From IMG/VR virus record IMGVR_UViG_3300017971_000066, positions 1-52,866 of that record: a stretch of 52,866 bases of DNA. One strand, 5' to 3'. Shown here in pieces: positions 8,863 to 52,866 of this stretch (position 1 is the stretch's first letter; every line of letters begins with the position of its first letter). This stretch comes from a virus. Under the pieces are notes generated by a model. The model searched no databases. It saw nothing but the letters and a program-made list of their open reading frames with translations, and was not told where the DNA came from. A program made the position numbers and the translations under genes.

Positions 8863-9182
8863 TAAATGAACTCCACATATTCGATGAGATCTTTCCTGTC
8901 GCCAGCTTCGTATCGATGGACATTCATTCTTTTTATCCTGTTGCCTGCAATCTCCTGCAGGATCTGCTGCACCTGATTCATCTGATCAGCATTCATCTGG
9001 TAGATAGTATCAACCGCCTGCTTCATCTGGGTAGCTACTTTCTCTGAATTGTCTGGAACAATAATCGGTGGTGGAGCTTCTGCAGCTGGTGCAACCGGAG
9101 TTGTTTTATTCGGTTTACGCTTGATCCTCGTATTCGATTTCCTCTCAAGCGCCGCCAGCTCTTTCGATGACAGTTGCCTCAT
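8862..9182 (-). CDS. Hypothetical coiled-coil protein (106 aa)
   Basis: The start is taken at ATG 9182 (MRQLSSKELAALERKS) because GGAG lies 8 nt upstream and the ATG overlaps the TGA of the 1568-aa gene. An upstream in-frame GTG at 9191 lacks such support. A basic N-terminus and Pro/Ala linker precede a Gln/Met-rich amphipathic helix (~50-85, MKQAVDTIYQMNADQMNQV). The function is unknown; a small assembly or structural helper is possible. Confidence 0.65.
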   Translation of the reverse strand: MRQLSSKELAALERKSNTRIKRKPNKTTPVAPAAEAPPPIIVPDNSEKVATQMKQAVDTIYQMNADQMNQVQQILQEIAGNRIKRMNVHRYEAGDRKDLIEYVEFI

Positions 9183-12100
9183 CCCAGACACTCCTTCAGT
9201 TTCTCAAGCATATCCAGCTGTTGCTGCTGCTCTGCTACCAGCTCTTCGGCTGTTGCCCGTGTCTCGATCTCAATTTCATTGCCTTCTGGATCCAGCACGG
9301 TTTCTTTATCAACCAGCTTTATTTTAGCAAGTGGCCTGCCTTTTTTCTCAGTCTGTTTGTCAATATTATCCATGAATGCAGCCATTTCTGCATCCTGCTG
9401 ACTCACTGTTTCTTGAGCTTCTGGTTTGCGTAGCGCATACCCGGTATTTCCACTGGAATCACCGACTTCAACAATCTCGTAGCTGCTGTAGCCATTCTTC
9501 GTCTGGAAACTTTTGGCGGCGCCTTTTGTTGCGAACGGTTTCCCATTCTTCGGCACCACGTCTGTTTCCTGCAGTGTTCTGCGTTCCAGCTCTTCTTGTG
9601 CCTTGCGCTCCTCTGCCTCGCGCTCGGCGCGAGCCATGTCTTTCTTTTCCTGCTCACGGAACTGCTTCAGCTTTTTGTCACGTTTGGCCTGCTCTTCTGC
9701 TTGGCGCTCGCCTCTTTTTGCGTCATATTCCGCTTCAAGATTTTCGGCAAAAGCAATAGTATTTTCTTCGCCGGTCAGATCAAAAGTCTTGGTCCGTGCG
9801 TCTGCTCGGCCAATGGTGTTGGCCACGGAATACAGGCCAAGGTCTTTGCCTTCGATCATATTGTCATTGATCGCTATTCCTGCCAGGCCGGCAATATAGC
9901 CATCAACGAATTTTTTCTTCTCCCCAGCTGGCAGCCTGTCCTCATAAGACTTGTCGAACATTGCTTCGCCTTTCGCTCTCGGAGATCCTGGCTCTGCCGC
10001 TTTTTGCTCGACTGGTTTGTGGTTTGCCACGAAGAAGGCATAAGCGATACCCTCTGGCGTCAATGAACGCAGACCTTCATCTTTCTCAGCCCTGCTCCAC
10101 ATTTTATGCATTAATGATCCTTGTTTAGGATCTACGTTTGCAGTCGGCAGGTTCGGATTAAAGTTGCCCCAGAAGTCGGTCTTCTTGGTGTAGTCATCGC
10201 CAAAATGATGTGGCTCAAACTTCAGTGTTGCCTCTGGCATTCCCATTTCGGAAGCGATTCTACCAACCGGGTTTTCCAGTACAGTAAACTGTGTAGGTTC
10301 CGCCAGGCCAATCAGCATGTCCGTCATAGCTACCAGCGCTTTGGTGTACTGCTTTGGCTCATTGAAGTATTCTGCAGCGTCTGGTCCGAACATGGCATTT
10401 ACCATGTCGTTGTCCTTTGGATCGTGTCGCTCATTCCACCACCGAGCACCAGATGCTGCAAAACAAGTACAAGGCGGCTGCGCGATTACGCCGACGATCT
10501 CGAACCCAGCGTCCTTAATTTCCTGAATCTGCCCCACTGGCGGATACTTAAAAATATCATCGCCAAGTTTGAGGTCATACTGAACAACCTGGTAGCCAGC
10601 GTCCTTCCACGGCTTACTGATTTCACCTGTTGCGTCAAACAGGGAAATGATAACTCTATTGCTGTTATCTTCGTTTTTGCCTGCGTCTTTGGCAGCCTGC
10701 TTCCAGCCTTTGATAATCTTATTTGCTTCAGCCTGTGATACCTGCGGAGGTGTCTGCTCCTTCTTTCTTAAATTTACCCTACCCTGGGTAGGTGTGAAGT
10801 ATTCTTCAGAAACGGTAAAGCCGTCCCAGTTACCGAATTCATCACGAAATGCATCTTCAGCCGCTTCTGCTTCTTCGTCGATCTTATAGTCAATACCAGC
10901 GACAGCCTCTTCAGATCGCTTTAGCACACGGGCATCATATTCTTCAAATGTTTCACCTGGGCGCTGAATCAGCTGATATTCATTTCCGTCAGCATAGCCT
11001 TCGATACCGTTTGTGTACCAAAGATGATCTATGACCTTGCCGTTTTGGACAGCAACAAAACTCATTGTCTCATTCTGCCCAGCACCAAGGATCTCGAAGT
11101 CTGCGCCTTCTTCCACTCTCACTAACCTCATGAATGCAGAATCAGTATCACCTTCAATATCATTGGCAAGCTCAGTTACCCGGTACTCAACTTCGCGTCC
11201 GCCAGCCTCATTCCTGTCGATCTTGACAATAATGTCACCAACTTTGAAATGATCTGTGAGCTTTTCCTTCGGGTTATTCTTAACAAAGAATGACGTATCA
11301 GATTGTGGGTTTGGCTCAATTTCAAACTGCTCAGTGAACTTCAGGCCAATATACTCTTCTGTCTCAGTCTTCTCGATCTGATCCAGCAGATTGGTCTGGC
11401 CACGCGCTTCTCGCTGATCAACTTCTCGATCTGAGCCGGTCAGGGTAAATTCACCTTCAGGTTCAGGCTCTGGCTCTACCTTTTGCGCTTCGCGCTTGGC
11501 GATGTCTTCTTCGGTGTATGTTTCGAGCTGGAAGTCCTCTGCCTCATCTTGCTTGCGACCTTCTTGCACTTTTTGCCCATCGGCATTCTCCTTCAAACGT
11601 GTTAATTCACGAACGATGGCGGCATCGCTCAAATTGCGTTCCAGTAGGTTCATAACAACCTCTGGATCCACACCAGCATTTTCTGTAGCTACAACAAGAT
11701 CAGCAATAGACCTGGTTTCCGTATCCCAGTCAGACTCGTAATATTCCTGCGCAATGCCATCGATGTTCTCTTCGGCCAGCGTTTCGTGAACATAGTCCTG
11801 ACCTTCGACGCGCTCCATTTCCAGCATGTCCAGCATGCCTTCCACCCATTCTTGCTGGCGAATACCTAGACGTTTTCCCGCCAGGGCTTTATCGACGGCA
11901 TTTCTCAGCGCTTTGACGCTGGGATATCCACCACTCTGGAACCAGTCGGGATTGATGGATGGCGTGCGCCCTGTGATACGGTCGTTCTCGTCGTAGGTAT
12001 ACTGGATGTCACCACCTTCAACCAGCTCGGCAGTCATATTCTTCAGGCCAGCCCTGAATGTTATATCCTGAATACGATCAAGACCCTTTGGTCCGCCGAA

Positions 12101-13885
12101 ATCTTTTGGCGGCTCGCCTTTGACTTGCTCAGGCATACCGCGCTCATCGAACATCTGTTCCTGCTCGGTTTCCTGTATTGGCTGCGGCGTTCTGAGCGCC
12201 TGCAACACGTCCTGTGCAAACTTCTTGGCAAAGCGCACGCCTTCGCCCGTGGAAATGCCCTTGGCCTCAATACCGGCTTTTTTCAGATCCCTGCGGATAG
12301 CACCGGGATCTCCCTCTACCATCAGGCTACCCTGCTCGGTAATGCGCATGCCGTACCTGGTGGTTGGGCCTTCAGTCGTGACCGGGGCATGACCCATATT
12401 AATAGGGGCCGGCAGACCAGCTCTGTGCGGGGTCGCGGGTAGTGCTGGCTGGCCTACTGGCATTGCAGCATCAGTTGGCTGCAGCTGTGGCTGCACCAGA
12501 ATTTCTTCATTGATGATCGGGCGCGTTAATGCCTCGACCTTTTTGTATTCTCTTTCGACGTGCGGCAGCGGATGTGATGTCGCGGCATCCGTATAAGGAT
12601 TTGGTCGAAGGCGATCCATGTCAGCCGTGCTTTGGTATGGCTGGACGATATCAGTTGTGTTAAAGCTGACTGGTTCTAGAGCTTTTGCTGCCGCTTGTTC
12701 TTCAGCCGCGCGCATGTCCTGCTGAAATTTAGCAAATCCCTGAACCTCTTCAGGTTTGGTCATGTCCACGCCGGTATTGTCGGTTACCGCATCGGTGACG
12801 GTATCACCGGTTTTCAGCTTGTTGACCACGGCCAGCTCGCCGATACTCATTGGAGCCGACATCAATGATTCCAGTACAGCATCCGTGGCGGACGCTTCAC
12901 CGGTTGCAGCTAATTCGCCGGCATATTCACCGATACCCTCGGCGAATGTCTCATTCGAGAATGCACCAACACCACGGGCGATATTCTTACCCTTGGTGGT
13001 CGCTTCGGTAAATGCTTTACCACCGGCTGCGACAACCTGTTCGGCAATATTCCTGTCAGCCATGGCAGCAGCAACGGCTGTTTTGTCGGCCACATCAACG
13101 CCATTGCGTGCCAGAACCTTGGATACAGCTTGCTCTACAGCTTTGCCAGGTACGCCAAGAATCAACTTTGACAGACCCATGGAAAGAGCATCAACACTGG
13201 TAATTACGCCACCCTTGATAATGCCCTCAGACAAGGCGTCGATACGCTCTTGCTCGGTAAATTCTTTGTCTTTGGCCTTTTCTGTTGCCTTGAAGCCGGT
13301 TTCGATCAAGGTGTTGCCAGCGAACAATCCGATAAGGCCGCCAACAACTGTGCCGACTGGACCTGCTGCTGTGCCGACTGCACCACCGGCCATCATGCCG
13401 CCCATAGCGACACCCATGTTCGGCAGCTGGGCACCCAGCTCATCGAGCGCACCCAATGGCGATTCCCAGATAGCACCGGCTACATTGGAGATACCATCAA
13501 GAATACCTTCATCGCCCTCTTCCATACGCTTTGCCAGCGCATCATAAAAGAGCTTCTGATCATCAGTGACGTTGGCCGATTCAAGATCAGCAGCATTGGC
13601 CACGACATCATCGAGATCGCCAACAGAAGTATTCCAGGCCGCCTTGGTGCCAGCCCAAAGTTTCTGGAAACCACCTCCTACAGCGCCCAGCCAGCTGTCA
13701 TCGATCCAGTCTCTTTCTTCCTCATTGGCCACTGGCTCCCAGTCATCCATTGAGGCACCAACTGGCTCCCAGTCATCCATTGAGGAACCGACTGGCTCCC
13801 AGTCATCCTGGCTCCACTCATCCGCAGCGTTTTGCTGACGATTGAGAATATCTCTCTGTTCGTCAGATAAATAGCCGTATGCCAT
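9179..13885 (-). CDS. Giant multidomain virion protein with cytosine-methylase-like domain (1568 aa)
   Basis: Domain order: residues ~25-52 hold three DDWEPVGxSM repeats. Residues ~150-190 form a Gly/Ala-rich hydrophobic stretch (GGMMAGGAVGTAAGPVG), as in proteins that insert into membranes during DNA ejection. Residues ~570-1050 are long and charged. Residues ~1075-1300 look like a C5 cytosine-methyltransferase fold: a motif-I-like FDATGEISKPW then VVQYDL, a motif-IV-like PPCTCFAASGARWW (~1137), ENPVGR (~1203) and KKTDFWGNF (~1233). Residues ~1380-1435 are a charged coiled coil. I infer a polyvalent ejected protein that may modify or protect DNA on entry. The Pro-Pro-Cys is present, but activity is not established. 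ATG 13885 overlaps the preceding stop. Confidence 0.8.
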   Translation of the reverse strand: MAYGYLSDEQRDILNRQQNAADEWSQDDWEPVGSSMDDWEPVGASMDDWEPVANEEERDWIDDSWLGAVGGGFQKLWAGTKAAWNTSVGDLDDVVANAADLESANVTDDQKLFYDALAKRMEEGDEGILDGISNVAGAIWESPLGALDELGAQLPNMGVAMGGMMAGGAVGTAAGPVGTVVGGLIGLFAGNTLIETGFKATEKAKDKEFTEQERIDALSEGIIKGGVITSVDALSMGLSKLILGVPGKAVEQAVSKVLARNGVDVADKTAVAAAMADRNIAEQVVAAGGKAFTEATTKGKNIARGVGAFSNETFAEGIGEYAGELAATGEASATDAVLESLMSAPMSIGELAVVNKLKTGDTVTDAVTDNTGVDMTKPEEVQGFAKFQQDMRAAEEQAAAKALEPVSFNTTDIVQPYQSTADMDRLRPNPYTDAATSHPLPHVEREYKKVEALTRPIINEEILVQPQLQPTDAAMPVGQPALPATPHRAGLPAPINMGHAPVTTEGPTTRYGMRITEQGSLMVEGDPGAIRRDLKKAGIEAKGISTGEGVRFAKKFAQDVLQALRTPQPIQETEQEQMFDERGMPEQVKGEPPKDFGGPKGLDRIQDITFRAGLKNMTAELVEGGDIQYTYDENDRITGRTPSINPDWFQSGGYPSVKALRNAVDKALAGKRLGIRQQEWVEGMLDMLEMERVEGQDYVHETLAEENIDGIAQEYYESDWDTETRSIADLVVATENAGVDPEVVMNLLERNLSDAAIVRELTRLKENADGQKVQEGRKQDEAEDFQLETYTEEDIAKREAQKVEPEPEPEGEFTLTGSDREVDQREARGQTNLLDQIEKTETEEYIGLKFTEQFEIEPNPQSDTSFFVKNNPKEKLTDHFKVGDIIVKIDRNEAGGREVEYRVTELANDIEGDTDSAFMRLVRVEEGADFEILGAGQNETMSFVAVQNGKVIDHLWYTNGIEGYADGNEYQLIQRPGETFEEYDARVLKRSEEAVAGIDYKIDEEAEAAEDAFRDEFGNWDGFTVSEEYFTPTQGRVNLRKKEQTPPQVSQAEANKIIKGWKQAAKDAGKNEDNSNRVIISLFDATGEISKPWKDAGYQVVQYDLKLGDDIFKYPPVGQIQEIKDAGFEIVGVIAQPPCTCFAASGARWWNERHDPKDNDMVNAMFGPDAAEYFNEPKQYTKALVAMTDMLIGLAEPTQFTVLENPVGRIASEMGMPEATLKFEPHHFGDDYTKKTDFWGNFNPNLPTANVDPKQGSLMHKMWSRAEKDEGLRSLTPEGIAYAFFVANHKPVEQKAAEPGSPRAKGEAMFDKSYEDRLPAGEKKKFVDGYIAGLAGIAINDNMIEGKDLGLYSVANTIGRADARTKTFDLTGEENTIAFAENLEAEYDAKRGERQAEEQAKRDKKLKQFREQEKKDMARAEREAEERKAQEELERRTLQETDVVPKNGKPFATKGAAKSFQTKNGYSSYEIVEVGDSSGNTGYALRKPEAQETVSQQDAEMAAFMDNIDKQTEKKGRPLAKIKLVDKETVLDPEGNEIEIETRATAEELVAEQQQQLDMLEKLKECLG
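13731..13808 (-). repeat. Three 30-bp tandem repeats encoding DDWEPVGxSM
   Basis: Units begin at 13731, 13761 and 13791 and share actggctcccagtcatcc. They encode repeated acidic/aromatic decapeptides near the N-terminus of the 1568-aa protein. An acidic repeated linear motif like this could be a docking tag for the portal or another ejected protein. Copy number could vary by slippage. Confidence 0.9.
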
Positions 13886-16048: not shown

Positions 16049-16471
16049 TTATATCACCTTTTTGGAGTAGAACACCCCATCCTCGTTATAACCCAAAATA
16101 TTCATCATTTTTCTGTACCTATCATTTTTACTTTCATCCGATAATATGACCGTATCGATTCCTTGGCTCGCTGCCCATTTCTCGAAATTCCTTATCAGAC
16201 GATGTGTAGACCGGTCAGAAAAACACATCAATTCTACGGCTCGCTTACTACCCCATATACTGGTATCCACCATGCCGCCAAACATGCCAACCAATTCTCC
16301 ATCGATTTCTACGACTTCAAAGTGAAAAGCAGGCAATACGGCCCCTACCGTTACCATACGGCGCAAATGCAATTCATCCATCGGCTGATCCCGATAAACG
16401 GTGAATGCATGCGCCTTTTTAAATAAAGGTAGCAGTTTTTTATAATCGTCAGGCCGAGCCTTTCTGATCAT
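16049..16471 (-). CDS. GNAT-family N-acetyltransferase (140 aa)
   Basis: The start MIRKARPDDYKKLLPLFKKA is a classical GNAT beginning. It is followed by strand FHFEVVEIDGELVGMFGGMV (beta 2-3) and the C-terminal GIDTVILSDESKNDRYRKMM and LGYNEDGVFYSKKV, matching the acetyl-CoA fold's last helix and strand. Length fits a minimal GNAT domain. It is translationally coupled to both neighbours (ATGA overlap at 16468-16471). The substrate is unknown. Its place inside the virion block suggests modification of a phage structural protein or of a host target at infection. Confidence 0.8.
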   Translation of the reverse strand: MIRKARPDDYKKLLPLFKKAHAFTVYRDQPMDELHLRRMVTVGAVLPAFHFEVVEIDGELVGMFGGMVDTSIWGSKRAVELMCFSDRSTHRLIRNFEKWAASQGIDTVILSDESKNDRYRKMMNILGYNEDGVFYSKKVI

Positions 16472-45891: not shown

Positions 45892-48800
45892 TCACTGATA
45901 CATTACCTCGCGATATGTTTCCATATACCGGTCCATGATCTTCAGCTCCTGCTCTTCAATTCGTCTGACCAGATCGTCGCGGTCCTTCTTGATGGCATTC
46001 TTCTTCTGTTTTTTCAGTTTGTTCAGCTGACTCTTGGTGAGCTTGTTTGTCCCGAATAGTTTGCGACGCTGCTTGATGTCGTCAAAAATCTTTCTGACCT
46101 GCGTATTATCGCCTTCGCTCTTGGCCCGGTTCACAGCTGCCTTCACATCCTCGATCTCGTAGAAGGCATCATAGAATGAGCGCTTGCGATCAGAAGGACC
46201 GACCTCGCCGATAACTTTCCTGGCAATAGGAATGTCGCGCCATTCCATTTCTGGACCTTGAGTTGCTGCGTTATATATAAACCTGCCACTATCCACAGCA
46301 ACGCGACCAGCAGCACCGGTCAATGTATCTGCAATCATGTCCACCCACTCAGGCGACCAGTCGATCAGTGACTTCTGGGTACCAGGGTTCTTGGTGATTT
46401 CTGCCAGCCATTTAGTGAAGGTCTTATATTCCTCTGGAACATTCTGATAGAACTTCGTGTGATCTGGCTGGCTCTTGTTGTAGTCCGGGTAAAGCGGTCC
46501 GCCGTGCCAGTCTTTGTTCTCTGATATCTTAGTAATCGGATCCGCGATGGTTGGCGTCAGAGTTTGCAGGAATGAGCCATCCTGTATCGGGTTAAAGGCT
46601 TGCAGCGAAGCAGAGAAAACTCTACCAGCAGATTCTGCTACAGAGTATCCATCAATGTTACCGCGTGCGGCATCAGTTGCCTTACCGATCTCCTGACCCA
46701 GAACATGGAATATATTGTAGCCCCATGGCAGTGGTATCTTGGCATAGCCATCGTCAAAGGTACCGGTTGGATCCATGATGATCAGGTTACGCTCTTTCAC
46801 ATGGTCTGGGATCTTGTCGTATTTTGACTCTTCGTCATCATCATCCTGACCCAGAGCCCTGTTTAGCATGTCCAGCGCTGTCGCAAAGCCTACGGTAGCG
46901 AGCAACATACCGCGCAGCTTCCAGTTGCCCTTGGCGAAAATAGCCCGCAGCATGCGCACAGTGCCCTGTATGGATGCGTTATAGAACAGGTAGGCAGAGT
47001 TAAGGACCATGCCCCATTCGCCTTTCCTGTTGAAGTCCACGGTGATCTCTTTAGAAATCCTGGCGGCTTCTTTGGCGCTTAGTCCATGCTCCTTGGCAGA
47101 GATAAAGGTCGATAGCCTGATACCGTTTTCTACAATCGTGTTGTAGTCCTCGATCCACTTGAGCATATCGAAGAATTGTTTCGCGCCAGGCTTCGTGCGA
47201 CGACGCAGATTCGATTCAATGCTCTTCATTAGTGAATCGATATCTTCATGGCTCTGCAGCCAGCCCGTCATGCCGCCAAGTTTTCGGAACTCCCTGAAGT
47301 CATCGGCATACTCAGCGGTTCCGTCACCACGCAGCACGCTACGAATAGCTCGCAGCGCCTTTGGCGCTCTGGCCATGGTGGTCAGCTCCATGTTATTTAC
47401 GTCTGTGTCCGTCAGGTTATATCCAGCGGTCTGCACATCACGGAAGAAGTTTGATATAACGAATTCCGGAGAAAGACTGGTATTGATTGCCGACAGGTAT
47501 CTATTGATCATCATCAGGAAGTTAATCAGTCGATTGCCCTGATCCATGTTCAGATTCTTCATGGCAGTGGCGATGCGTTCGGCATGCTCATTGTCGCTCT
47601 TGAACCAGATGTACTGATTCACGCCGTTGAATTTAACAGCCATCAACTGGTCATCAAGCATATTCTCGCGGCGCTTGGCCACTCCCAGTTTATCGAGATA
47701 AATATCTTCCGGCTTATCAACAACTGACCACATATTGTCATCAGGATTTTCGACCACGAAACGATACATATCCTGAGCAATCTTGTTCTTTTGGCCACGG
47801 ACGATACCAGCCTGCGCATTACCCACCAGATGCGCGATCATATTTTTATAGTCCACAGTCTTTTCAGAGCCGCCCCTGATCTTGCTTGGTTTTCCGCGCA
47901 TATCGAAACCGCGACCCCTGCCTGGCATATCACCAGCAACATCTTTACGGTTCAATGGAACGTAGTATCTGTAGTTTTGACGCCATGCCATTGCTTCTTC
48001 TTCAGTCAGCAGCTCATCGGCTACCAGTTGGTTGACGTGCCTATTGCTGACCTCATCGACAATCTCAGCAACACGGCGCAGCTTGTTGTTGTTGCCATAG
48101 CGTATCAGGATCCCTGCAGCTTCTTCGTTTGACATACCGGACAGCGCCTTGTTCGGACGGTCGGTAACCTCCATAGCCTCGATGTCAGCCAATAGCCTGG
48201 TAAGTCTTGCGTGTTCGCCTTCCAGATTAGCCATCTGCGGAGATCTTGCGGTAGCGCCGGCCTCGCGCAGCTGGGCCATATCAGCCTCTACAACTGATAT
48301 TTCCTCGGTAGTCTGCGCGATGCGTTCGTCTTTTTCCTGCTGGGTAGGGTTCCTGAAGCGCAGCACTTCATTGGCCTCTTCAGCATGTCTGGCGTGTAGG
48401 TATTTTCCTACATCCTCGAACGACATCCCGGTAGCCTTGATTGCGTCCGCCAGTGGTTCAACGTATGCCTGCTCGAAATCCTCGATAACCGCACGGGTTG
48501 CGCCAGGGTAAAGCGTGACAGTGCGCTCGACATCTACGGTATCAGGATTTGCCTCTTTGGCGGCCTCCTGAACCTTGCTCAATGCATGGAATCGATTGTA
48601 GAAAAGCGTCTTCAGCTTGTCGCCAGTGGTGAACGTATCATCGAAGCCGGTTTGCTCTGTGCTGTAATTGGAAGACTCTTCTTCAACGGTGTAGGATTTT
48701 TCACGGACGGTGTATTTCTTCTCGGCGCCCTTCATGACCAGCGAGAATGGAGAAGTCCACTGGTCAGCCATCAGCGCATCAATGACCACGCCATTTTTCA

Positions 48801-51306
48801 CAGCGGCTTGGGCGAGTGACTCAAGTGCAGTAGGAACATTGACCAAGAACATTTCACCCGCACCAGTCTGCCTGGAAAAAGCTCTCGCCTCGGCCAGCAG
48901 TTTACGGCGCTTGCGCATCTTGTTCTGCTCTGCATACAGATCCATAGCTGGGATAGATAGAATGCCGGCCACACCATTACGGTTGATGCTGACCAGCTGC
49001 ATCTGACCTTTATGGTTATCACGCAGCTCTTTGGCGAAGGCCGCCAGTGTATCTGGGCTGTTGATCGTATAACCCAGCAGCGGGTGATCCTTGGTTGGGT
49101 TCTTGCCGACTTCGTAGGAGTCTTTCGGAATGCGCTTGCTGATTACACTCTTGGTGCCATTCTCATCAATGAATCCGTAGGTGTTGCCATTGATAATGAC
49201 ATGGCCTTTGAATCCTTTGAGCTCAGTCTGGAAGACGCCAGTGATTCCGATATCAGCAGAAGACGCGTCCGGATTTCCGGATGGGTGATTGTGCTGCATC
49301 CAGAAACCGTCAGCTTCCAGCGTTTTCATTTGGGCCCGGATATCAGCTAATACCTGCTCTTTGTGTTCTTTGTTATTGAAGATCTGCACAACACCTGGCA
49401 TGCGCGATGTCAAGCCGGTCTGACCTACGATCTGATCGCCCTTGGTGTAGAATACTCGGAATGTTTCGACAGATGGGTTGCGGTATATTTCCGCCAGATC
49501 CGCCAGCTCTTGGTGATTCCTTACGACTTGTCCGGTGAGCTTGGTGGTTCCCCGGTCTTTGAAGTCGGCAGCAATTTGATTGGCGAGTATGGTACCCGAT
49601 CTCGCACTCCATAGAGAAACCAGTCCTTCGGCTTGCTGTCTGGCACGATTGTCAGCGTCGGTTTGTTTTTCAGGGTCAACTTCATACTTGAACTCAGACT
49701 CTACAGTTTCGCGGACCTTTCCTTCCGTTCCTTCTGCATCAACCTGGCTCTCTTCATAAGTTTCCGCAGCTCTGCTTTCTCGCTTGGAGTCCAGTCTGGA
49801 CTGAAGTGCCTGTAATAGTCCATCGATTTGTTCTGCTTCGGCATTTGATAGTTTCTCCTGTGAGTCCAGCCTTCTAATCACGTCGTTGATGTCACGCTTA
49901 ACACCCTCGGCGCCAGTGAAGTGACCATTGAAAGTTATCTGCCCACTAAAACAACCTATACCCCTGCCTTTATCACATTTCAAGCAGTTCCAGCGTTTCT
50001 TTTGACCGGAGTCAACAGGACAGACTTTATCTTTTACAATTATCGGGATGTCTTCAATGACTTCATTGGAGGCACCAAAATTCTTGTCGCCATAAACTGG
50101 CAGCACAACCTGCACCCGTTCAGGCTGATCATGCATCAACTTTTCTTCACGACCACCATTCAGGTTAATAGCCAGCGGCAGATCATTGCCAGCTGCCAGG
50201 TCAACATTACTGTCATCGATAGATAACAGTCTGGTGTTGCGAGCATCCACTTTCTGAAGGAATTCAGGTTTCTTCGAGAACACATGGGTCCGGATATTTT
50301 TCCGGTTCAGCTGGGTGATCATTTCTTGGTGAGCGTCTGTGCCGTCACCGATATCGAACATGCGCAGTGCTGTTGTTTTCCATGCAGCCCCGACGCCATC
50401 TTCTGAAGATTTGAATTCTTCAGCTGCCATGTTGGCGGCACGCACGGGATCGCGCTGCGTCATCAGATCGACCAGCTCGGCCTTGGCCTTGGAAGCTGGC
50501 CAGATGTGACGACCAGCTGTTGCATAACAGAATTTCGCACAGGCCTTGGATGGATCGCAGTTCTGCAAGGAGGAATTCACTGTGAATTGTGGTTTGCCAG
50601 CCTTGCCTAGAATCTTGTTTTTTTCCAGATAACGCCAGCCGCCTTCCCAGCCGTGCTGCTCAAGCATGTTTGCCAGCGTTTTATTCAGAGACTTGGCGTC
50701 TTCGGCTTTGATCTTGCCTTCAGCGACATCGATGATCTCCATGCGGTAGATCAGGCTGCGCTTTACTTCGCGTGCCCATGGGGTGGTTCTGTGAGCCTTG
50801 AGTCTTTCCTTTAGTTCCGGGCTGGCAGCCTTTGCCCAGTGGCGTTTTTCCACACGGCTATCCACATGCTGGGTGGTTACGGAAGCCTCGTAGCCTGTTT
50901 TACTTTCCTCTACGGTCATCAGGTCCAGATCACGGGCCTGCTTGTCGATAAACTCTTCAGTCAGCCTGGTAGACTCTGGTACCTGAATCTGATATTCAGA
51001 GCCTAGATCCTTGATGGTGCCATCAAACAGATCATCTGCAGTGACCACCTCGTCCTCGACAGGCGCTGCCTCAGTCACTTCAGGCATCACCATATCTTCA
51101 ATGACGCCGCCTTTATCACGAATCCTTCCCGCCAAGGTGTTGAAGTCCTCGACTGCCTGCACGATGGTATCATCAATCGCTCGCATGCCAGCCTCTGTCC
51201 GCGTCAGCCCGTCCTGCTGATATTCCTCGGCAAGAGACTGGATCTGCTCCTTGTATTCAGGTTTCAGATCTTTCGCTTTCTTCAGGCACTGGTTGAGCGT
51301 ACTCAT
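45892..51306 (-). CDS. Giant multidomain polyvalent virion protein (1804 aa)
   Basis: Domains read from the sequence: residues ~240-470 resemble a gene-product-88-like region with Cys clusters (CDPSKACAKFCYATAGRHIW, then CLKCDKGRGIGC). Residues ~630-720 form a RadC/JAMM-like domain with QHNHPSGNPDASSAD (His672, His674, Asp ~685). Residues ~830-1150 are charged and helical. Residues ~1240-1600 match the LPD38-type region of large polyvalent proteins (FVISNFFRDVQTAGYNL, LVNxAYLFYNASIQGT-like, PWGYNIFHVLGQEI). A long basic helical C-terminus follows. I infer an injected multifunctional protein. It is separated by 92 nt from M23. Confidence 0.8.
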   Translation of the reverse strand: MSTLNQCLKKAKDLKPEYKEQIQSLAEEYQQDGLTRTEAGMRAIDDTIVQAVEDFNTLAGRIRDKGGVIEDMVMPEVTEAAPVEDEVVTADDLFDGTIKDLGSEYQIQVPESTRLTEEFIDKQARDLDLMTVEESKTGYEASVTTQHVDSRVEKRHWAKAASPELKERLKAHRTTPWAREVKRSLIYRMEIIDVAEGKIKAEDAKSLNKTLANMLEQHGWEGGWRYLEKNKILGKAGKPQFTVNSSLQNCDPSKACAKFCYATAGRHIWPASKAKAELVDLMTQRDPVRAANMAAEEFKSSEDGVGAAWKTTALRMFDIGDGTDAHQEMITQLNRKNIRTHVFSKKPEFLQKVDARNTRLLSIDDSNVDLAAGNDLPLAINLNGGREEKLMHDQPERVQVVLPVYGDKNFGASNEVIEDIPIIVKDKVCPVDSGQKKRWNCLKCDKGRGIGCFSGQITFNGHFTGAEGVKRDINDVIRRLDSQEKLSNAEAEQIDGLLQALQSRLDSKRESRAAETYEESQVDAEGTEGKVRETVESEFKYEVDPEKQTDADNRARQQAEGLVSLWSARSGTILANQIAADFKDRGTTKLTGQVVRNHQELADLAEIYRNPSVETFRVFYTKGDQIVGQTGLTSRMPGVVQIFNNKEHKEQVLADIRAQMKTLEADGFWMQHNHPSGNPDASSADIGITGVFQTELKGFKGHVIINGNTYGFIDENGTKSVISKRIPKDSYEVGKNPTKDHPLLGYTINSPDTLAAFAKELRDNHKGQMQLVSINRNGVAGILSIPAMDLYAEQNKMRKRRKLLAEARAFSRQTGAGEMFLVNVPTALESLAQAAVKNGVVIDALMADQWTSPFSLVMKGAEKKYTVREKSYTVEEESSNYSTEQTGFDDTFTTGDKLKTLFYNRFHALSKVQEAAKEANPDTVDVERTVTLYPGATRAVIEDFEQAYVEPLADAIKATGMSFEDVGKYLHARHAEEANEVLRFRNPTQQEKDERIAQTTEEISVVEADMAQLREAGATARSPQMANLEGEHARLTRLLADIEAMEVTDRPNKALSGMSNEEAAGILIRYGNNNKLRRVAEIVDEVSNRHVNQLVADELLTEEEAMAWRQNYRYYVPLNRKDVAGDMPGRGRGFDMRGKPSKIRGGSEKTVDYKNMIAHLVGNAQAGIVRGQKNKIAQDMYRFVVENPDDNMWSVVDKPEDIYLDKLGVAKRRENMLDDQLMAVKFNGVNQYIWFKSDNEHAERIATAMKNLNMDQGNRLINFLMMINRYLSAINTSLSPEFVISNFFRDVQTAGYNLTDTDVNNMELTTMARAPKALRAIRSVLRGDGTAEYADDFREFRKLGGMTGWLQSHEDIDSLMKSIESNLRRRTKPGAKQFFDMLKWIEDYNTIVENGIRLSTFISAKEHGLSAKEAARISKEITVDFNRKGEWGMVLNSAYLFYNASIQGTVRMLRAIFAKGNWKLRGMLLATVGFATALDMLNRALGQDDDDEESKYDKIPDHVKERNLIIMDPTGTFDDGYAKIPLPWGYNIFHVLGQEIGKATDAARGNIDGYSVAESAGRVFSASLQAFNPIQDGSFLQTLTPTIADPITKISENKDWHGGPLYPDYNKSQPDHTKFYQNVPEEYKTFTKWLAEITKNPGTQKSLIDWSPEWVDMIADTLTGAAGRVAVDSGRFIYNAATQGPEMEWRDIPIARKVIGEVGPSDRKRSFYDAFYEIEDVKAAVNRAKSEGDNTQVRKIFDDIKQRRKLFGTNKLTKSQLNKLKKQKKNAIKKDRDDLVRRIEEQELKIMDRYMETYREVMYQ

Positions 51307-51988: not shown

Positions 51989-52866
51989 TTACAACTCGTA
52001 TTGGATGTTAATTGCGCCAGCGTCAAAGGTATCTGTGCCGTTGACCGTGGTAATTCTAACGATATCAATAGCGCCAGATAACCCACTGTGGCCACCTGCT
52101 GTCTGGTGGAATTTAGTATTACCGTTTCCAAGCATACCGGTACAGGTCCAGACATGGTTGGTGCCATCTTCCAAACATAGCTCAAAATGCCCTGAATGAG
52201 TATCACCTGCATTATTTATATAAACATTAAAGCCCGCTGTAGATGAAGCAGTCGCCAGTGTAGTAGCACCAAAAATAATGGAACTTGCTGTATATCCGCT
52301 GGTTTGCGGCGTACTTGATGTGCCGACCTGTAAAAGGAGATCGCTTGTTCCACTGGTAGAAACGCCTGAAAACATGACCTTTATGCACTTAACGTTTGCT
52401 GGAATAGTGAAGTCTATAGATGTTCCTGATGTTGAAGCCTGCTCTGTGCCTAATGTAATTAGGCCATTACCAGCAGTAATAGCATCATCCACATACTTCT
52501 TATTTGGGATGTCATCATCAGCAGTAACTAAGTTTTCATAGTTAGTAACCGCACTAACATTCAATGTGCCATCTGTTTCAATGGCGAAACCACTCATCTG
52601 ATGCTTAATGCCTGAAGTCGGTATATAAACACCCCATGAAGTTCCGGGCAGCGTACCTTGGTAATCACCGTAGAAAAGAATAGCATTGCCAATAGCCGTT
52701 GTGGGAGAAGTAGTACGGTCGTTATCGATACGAGAAAGAACGCCATAAGCAGTGCTAATATTTCCAGCACCTTCATCTATTTCGACTTCAGAGTATGTAC
52801 CATACGCATTTGCAGTCGTACCTGTGGCTGCTGACTGTTTAAGAACTTTATTGTAAGAACCATTAG
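51989..52866 (-). CDS. Large tail fibre protein, C-terminal part (continues from 2683-1 across the join)
   Basis: This is the 3' end of the gene that starts at 2683. The frame is open through 52866 and matches the codons at 1-123. It contains AIETDGTLNVSAVTNYENLV then TADDDIPNKKYVDDAI, a junction seen in the smaller fibre, followed by a C-terminal ~160-residue beta domain (SIDFTIPANVKCIKVMFSG; FHQTAGGHSGLSGAIDIVRI) ending in GAINIQYEL. The C-terminal domain is probably the receptor-binding tip (inference). Confidence 0.85.
   Translation of the reverse strand, partial: NGSYNKVLKQSAATGTTANAYGTYSEVEIDEGAGNISTAYGVLSRIDNDRTTSPTTAIGNAILFYGDYQGTLPGTSWGVYIPTSGIKHQMSGFAIETDGTLNVSAVTNYENLVTADDDIPNKKYVDDAITAGNGLITLGTEQASTSGTSIDFTIPANVKCIKVMFSGVSTSGTSDLLLQVGTSSTPQTSGYTASSIIFGATTLATASSTAGFNVYINNAGDTHSGHFELCLEDGTNHVWTCTGMLGNGNTKFHQTAGGHSGLSGAIDIVRITTVNGTDTFDAGAINIQYEL
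52744..52866. repeat. Terminal direct repeat, copy 2 (assembly overlap)
   Basis: Identical to 1-123; removing either copy gives a 52,743-bp circle with an intact fibre gene. Confidence 0.95.

Follow-up and report, generated by a model that had tools for sequence, protein, structure and literature searches.

The window, that is, the whole stretch of 52,866 nucleotides of an IMG/VR virus record that was analysed, carries on its minus strand an open reading frame (ORF) of 1568 residues (9179..13885). From its open frame, a PHROG match and its late-gene position, the product is annotated as a probable ejected virion protein of the polyvalent type with a C5-cytosine methyltransferase (C5-MTase) domain. 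The ORF lies on the same strand and in the same region as the genes for the terminase, the portal and the major head protein, which it follows on the late-gene strand. That the product is of virion type is probable, and is argued from this gene position and from its relatives rather than from its own sequence. The late operon also contains a gene for a GNAT-type acetyltransferase (16049-16471, minus strand; phrog_1249, E 7.5e-18), and the virion module of phage JC1 likewise has an acetyltransferase gene, gp63. Two minus-strand ORFs cut at the window ends (1-2683 and 51989-52866) join in frame into 1187 codons, so that the record probably represents a whole genome in circularly permuted form; no end repeat is reported for it.

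Close to the N-terminus of the 1568-residue protein, a triple repeat of DDWEPV(G/A) occupies residues 27-53 (13727..13807, minus strand), with a self-similarity of 98 that none of 200 shuffles reached. Among the large proteins that embed the same domain at related loci (hereafter giants), 13 of 51 have short N-terminal tandem repeats that beat shuffles (p<=0.01), compared with 5 of 51 internal segments taken as controls; N-terminal repeats were also seen at loci L008, L018, L033, L043, L047, L048, L049, L025, L036 and L050. Such repeats might represent a packaging or assembly signal. Further along, residues 151-190 (13316..13435, minus strand) form a Gly-rich hydrophobic stretch. The sequence-only reading of this DNA had described the N-terminus as Gly-rich and membrane-active-looking, and the composition bears this out, with 7 Gly per 20 residues and a GRAVY of 1.45 near residues 171-190, alongside weak sub-threshold matches to membrane proteins. 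The Pfam hits to this region (Mntp, C19orf12 and VTT) fell below their own cut-offs and were discarded, as were NCBIfam hits to the protein (pdsO, TraH and HblC), which lay far below theirs. A zincin HExxH motif occurs neither in this ORF nor in the second large ORF of the window, which has 1804 residues.

The C5-MTase domain spans residues 1060-1310 (9956..10708, minus strand) and is defined by a PHROG profile, an AlphaFold2 model and fold comparison. Four strings had been singled out as lying in the order expected of a cytosine methylase, and all four match the translation exactly and in that order: FDATGEISKPW (residues 1083-1093), PPCTCFAASGARWW (1137-1150), ENPVGR (1204-1209) and KKTDFWGNF (1234-1242). 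The ordered combination of motif I, PPC and EN[PV] has a single occurrence in the protein, and 5000 shuffled versions yielded none. The profile phrog_757, 'DNA methyltransferase', covers residues 1070-1301 with an E-value of 1.3e-36 (profile positions 8-231 of 247). Pfam PF00145 recognises 54 members of the alignment of 72 relatives, at best with 1e-8; the window domain alone gave no Pfam match, and phmmer found none for it among PDB sequences. The family profile, searched against the same PDB sequences, returned a weak true match to 3g7u, a prophage C5-MTase, together with coiled-coil noise and a weak match to DNMT2 (E 0.09). Motifs I, II, III, IV and VI of the profile align with those of 3g7u.

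The proposed C5-methyltransferase-type fold is upheld by structure prediction. Built from the alignment of 72 domains, the AlphaFold2 model of the window domain has a pLDDT of 91.4 and a pTM of 0.87, and the best 50 PDB entries listed by VIA-align are all C5-MTases, with Z-scores of 12.6-14.9 over 176-198 aligned residues. These include DNMT3A/B/C, DNMT1, complexes of M.HhaI with DNA and AdoHcy, M.HaeIII and 3g7u. A special closeness to DNMT3 was considered and rejected; DNMT3A precedes M.HhaI by less than one Z unit, which amounts to a tie, and sequence profiles show no such closeness. Together, model and sequence support a C5-MTase fold with an intact-looking active site at residues 1070-1301, which would make the domain a putative enzyme.

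The predicted active site can be followed motif by motif along the minus strand. Motif I, the presumed SAM-binding loop, is F1083-DATG1087 (10625..10639); it aligns with motif I of 3g7u, and its Gly1087 is invariant in 72 relatives. In the window domain this predicted SAM site reads FDATGE, as against the canonical FxGxGG. Motifs II and III contribute D1104 and D1110 (10556..10576), the expected SAM contacts, of which D1110 is invariant and D1104 is kept in at least 90% of the 72. Motif IV is PPC with the putative catalytic Cys1139 (10469..10477), and motif VI is E1204-N-P1206 with the putative catalytic Glu (10268..10276). At the position of motif VIII, K1234-K-T1236 (10178..10186) stands in place of the canonical QxRxR, and an invariant K-x-T occupies this position throughout the family. 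Only about 30 residues separate KKTDFWGNF from a C-terminal RSLTPEG motif, which leaves no room for the usual target-recognition domain. The large target-recognition domain that canonical type II enzymes such as M.HhaI and M.HaeIII carry between motifs VIII and IX/X is accordingly absent from the window domain, which might need a partner.

The motif conservation in relatives on which the sequence-only reading depended is present. In the alignment of 72 domains, made up of the window and related viral loci, the catalytic Cys, the Glu-Asn-Pro of motif VI and the Asp of motif III are invariant (72/72, window included), and PCT and EN[PV] are kept in all 55 unique giants. dS was measurable for 13 close pairs of embedded domains, whose NG86 dN/dS ratios were 0.03-0.14 in 12 pairs and 0.43 in one; some of the dS values exceed 1 and make these ratios rough, and the pairs all come from relatives, the window sequence sitting on a long branch without a close relative. 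In nearly all close pairs the flanks of 300 residues on each side are more diverged than the domain. When 15 complete giants were aligned, nearly all invariant columns fell inside the C5 domain, which is thus their best conserved part. In the tree the embedded forms cluster together, and the window groups with loci L008, L009 and L010 (98/85 support).

The relatives were recovered with the family alignment, which returned 80 loci from IMG/VR; the whole 1568-residue protein as a single query found no relative among viral contigs. At 44 of the 80 viral loci the C5 domain is part of an ORF longer than 1000 residues, and most of the others encode stand-alone forms of about 180-250 residues. The embedding proteins range from about 1,400 to more than 5,000 residues and contain polyvalent-protein domains. 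One belongs to a cultured phage, Pseudomonas phage 8P, in which the domain sits in a 5145-residue protein whose designation as 'structural protein' is an annotation label only. The same giants occur in genome contigs of Rhodobacter, Sagittula, Breoghania, Janthinobacterium, Marinobacterium and others.

Among the 15 complete giants, LPD38 is found in ten, and LPD1, LPD5, LPD39, ART-PolyVal, InPase, MuF_C and ddrB-ParB in one to three each. Several giants start with peptidoglycan hydrolases (SLT, Hydrolase_2 or peptidase M15/VanY), and an N-terminal cell-wall hydrolase is present at L010, in the window's own subclade. In three of the five N-terminal parts that were looked at, InPase precedes the methylase by about 110-380 residues. 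Of the 55 unique giants, 19, phage 8P included, contain a region with homology to BcepIL02 gp70, namely to its N6A-MTase/helicase part; this is a lower bound, as several giants are incomplete at the end of their DNA. This DarB-like region is always C-terminal to the C5 domain (19/19), and 16 of the 19 have the NPP[FYW] motif. The giant at L027 is 74% identical to BcepIL02 gp70 over 1738 residues of the N6A-MTase/helicase region, whereas the C5-domain profile found no match in gp70 itself; the C5 domain therefore behaves like a module that DarB-like proteins may carry or lack.

In the 1568-residue chain the C5-MTase is the sole recognised catalytic domain. The other hallmarks lie on the separate 1804-residue ORF (45892..51306, minus strand), for which profile matches and gp70 homology indicate a GP88-like region, a RadC-like fragment and LPD38. 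The LPD38 domain covers residues 1494-1694 (46225..46827, minus strand; PF18857, E 1.9e-38). The RadC-like JAB fragment (residues 662-698) scores just below the Pfam cut-off. Residues 896-1804 align with residues 3774-4658 of BcepIL02 gp70 at 22% identity (E 1e-44), and the C-terminal half also matches the C-termini of C5-bearing giants at L037, L038, L043, L011, L013 and L078. On these sequence comparisons the two ORFs appear to be one giant split into two genes. Neither matches residues 1400-3300 of gp70, where the DarB-like dyad of N6-adenine MTase and SNF2-type helicase resides, and neither contains a recognised cell-wall hydrolase, unlike many relatives.

The domain is shared with plasmids. 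At the phage locus L030 it is 85-90% identical to plasmid-borne copies, one of which, on a Massilia plasmid, is embedded in a 5555-residue PLxRFG protein; a gene for a glycoside hydrolase of family 19 is also present on that plasmid. On plasmids of Citrobacter, Pseudomonas and Agrobacterium, separate C5-MTase genes of about 350-430 residues are found near ssb, parA, parB and mobC, and a similar block of C5-MTase, ssb, parAB and mobC was seen at the three loci concerned (L089, L090 and L091). The separate plasmid forms nest in the giant clade, and well-supported branches force at least five to six changes. The leading regions of plasmids are enriched in orphan MTases and SSBs, which may protect entering DNA (Samuel et al. 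2024, PMC11541004); cytosine is absent from the main text of that study. The likeness is that genes on plasmids, with about 85% identity to a domain of a phage giant, lie near ssb, parAB and mobC, and the difference is that orphan MTases of leading regions are expressed after transfer and not delivered as protein. The methylase genes of the plasmids described here are located by their neighbours ssb, par and mobC and not relative to oriT.

Several known systems help to place the window protein. LPD, InPase, ART, MuF-C and ParB domains and peptidoglycan hydrolases are hallmarks of polyvalent proteins of the phage type (Iyer et al. 2017, PMC5512222), and LPD38, InPase, ART, MuF-C, ParB and hydrolases recur in the C5-bearing giants. 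The MTases of the described polyvalent proteins, in contrast, are mostly EcoKI/TaqI-like N6-adenine enzymes that come with a helicase and LPD36; a C5-cytosine MTase is not described in the main text of that paper, in which 'cytosine' occurs once, within a reference. The closest parallel in function is the group of DarB-like giants (P1 DarB, BcepIL02 gp70 and JC1 gp69), giant polyvalent proteins whose DNA methylase is thought to protect incoming DNA and whose LPD38-type C-terminus is homologous to the 1804-residue ORF. Theirs is, however, an N6-adenine methylase (NPPF, Eco57I-like in gp70) accompanied by an SNF2-type helicase, whereas the window has a C5 domain, lacks the dyad and has its giant in two ORFs. 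The stand-alone C5-MTases of PHROG 757 (in Drexlerviridae, Webervirus and others) belong to the same domain family and share its catalytic motifs, but are separate proteins of about 180-250 residues; in the tree the embedded forms cluster with one another. M.HhaI and DNMT3A share the fold and the order of motifs I-VI; at motif VIII the window domain differs from both by its KKT, and it differs from M.HhaI in having about 30 residues where that enzyme has its target-recognition domain. No description of a C5-MTase in polyvalent proteins was found in the main texts of the open-access papers searched. Set beside the known particle-borne adenine methylase (DarB), the new element, as judged from sequence, would be a cytosine-type module in such giants.

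These relatives lend support to the idea that the C5 protein is carried by the particle to act on DNA as it enters, and packaging of the window protein may be expected by analogy: the relatives have hydrolase N-termini, LPD domains and DarB-like fusions, and a homologue has been detected in virions. In JC1, a Bcep22-like podovirus, virions purified on CsCl yielded 51 unique peptides of the 4515-residue DarB-like gp69, whose score in mass spectrometry was second only to that of the major capsid protein (PMC9144972). According to the summary in PMC5512222, P1 DarB likewise belongs to the virion head, and its protection of DNA acts in cis.

From the predicted fold, the conservation and constraint of the domain and the fusions among its relatives, we infer packaging, ejection, catalysis and an anti-restriction role in this phage, and consider the following course of events probable. 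The polyvalent-type 1568-residue protein would be packaged into the virion and leave it by ejection together with the DNA. On entry, its compact C5 domain would bind SAM from the host cytoplasm, Cys1139 would attack C6 of a flipped cytosine with Glu1204 assisting, and cytosines of the incoming phage DNA would be methylated in cis before phage gene expression. Restriction enzymes sensitive to m5C would then be unable to cut the methylated incoming DNA, the whole amounting to a cytosine counterpart of P1 DarB. Shielding of incoming DNA is the probable role because the module recurs in dozens of giants, often beside the DarB-like anti-restriction module.

Other readings of the same observations have to be weighed against this one. 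The 1568-residue protein could be expressed in the infected cell without being ejected and could modify progeny DNA before packaging, as orphan phage MTases do. Stand-alone relatives do occur in many phages among ordinary expressed genes, and expression from a late operon would coincide with packaging. However, a methylase confined to the producer cell would not need such a protein context; the giants fuse the C5 domain to cell-wall hydrolases and LPD domains, and the homologous JC1 giant is found in virions. We give this reading a small chance. A similarly small chance attaches to an active C5-MTase whose substrate is host DNA or, as with DNMT2 and tRNA, an RNA, and which disturbs host expression or marks host DNA. 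The minimal size of the enzyme and its lack of a target-recognition domain would fit a substrate that is non-specific or is not DNA, domains aimed at the host, such as ART, are frequent in polyvalent proteins, and the weak DNMT2 match fits as well; on the other hand, it is DNA enzymes that lead the fold comparison, and both the DarB-like fusion in 19 of 55 giants and the ssb/par neighbourhood on plasmids point to the element's own DNA as substrate.

The sequence-only reading had itself raised the alternative that the domain is a degenerate DNA-binding relic, which would be catalytically dead and have a structural role. The lack of a target-recognition domain, the altered motifs I and VIII and the long branch of the window sequence are what such a relic could show. 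The alternative is nevertheless very improbable and was set aside: none of the 72 sequences, the window's among them, departs from the Cys, the Glu or the motif III Asp, the domain is under strong purifying selection in the relatives while its flanks drift, and no part of the giants is better conserved. With low dN/dS in relatives and invariant catalytic residues, the C5 domain is not regarded as a relic, and delivery in the particle to protect incoming DNA remains the preferred reading.

Restriction enzymes can act before any phage gene is expressed. Methylases that must first be expressed come too late for this, and a particle-borne methylase solves the problem of timing. To our knowledge, the well-described methylases borne by particles are all of the adenine type (DarB). 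It is conceivable, though we hold this broader idea as speculative, that cytosine methylases without a target-recognition domain are widespread and delivered by particles, where they could bring about broad, low-specificity methylation of the incoming phage DNA soon after entry and, together with a DarB-type adenine methylase of the same chain, a two-base protection from many restriction systems at a time, the module being exchanged time and again between phage particles and plasmids. A conserved cytosine-type module that stands beside the DarB module and is common to plasmids would widen the known anti-restriction strategies.
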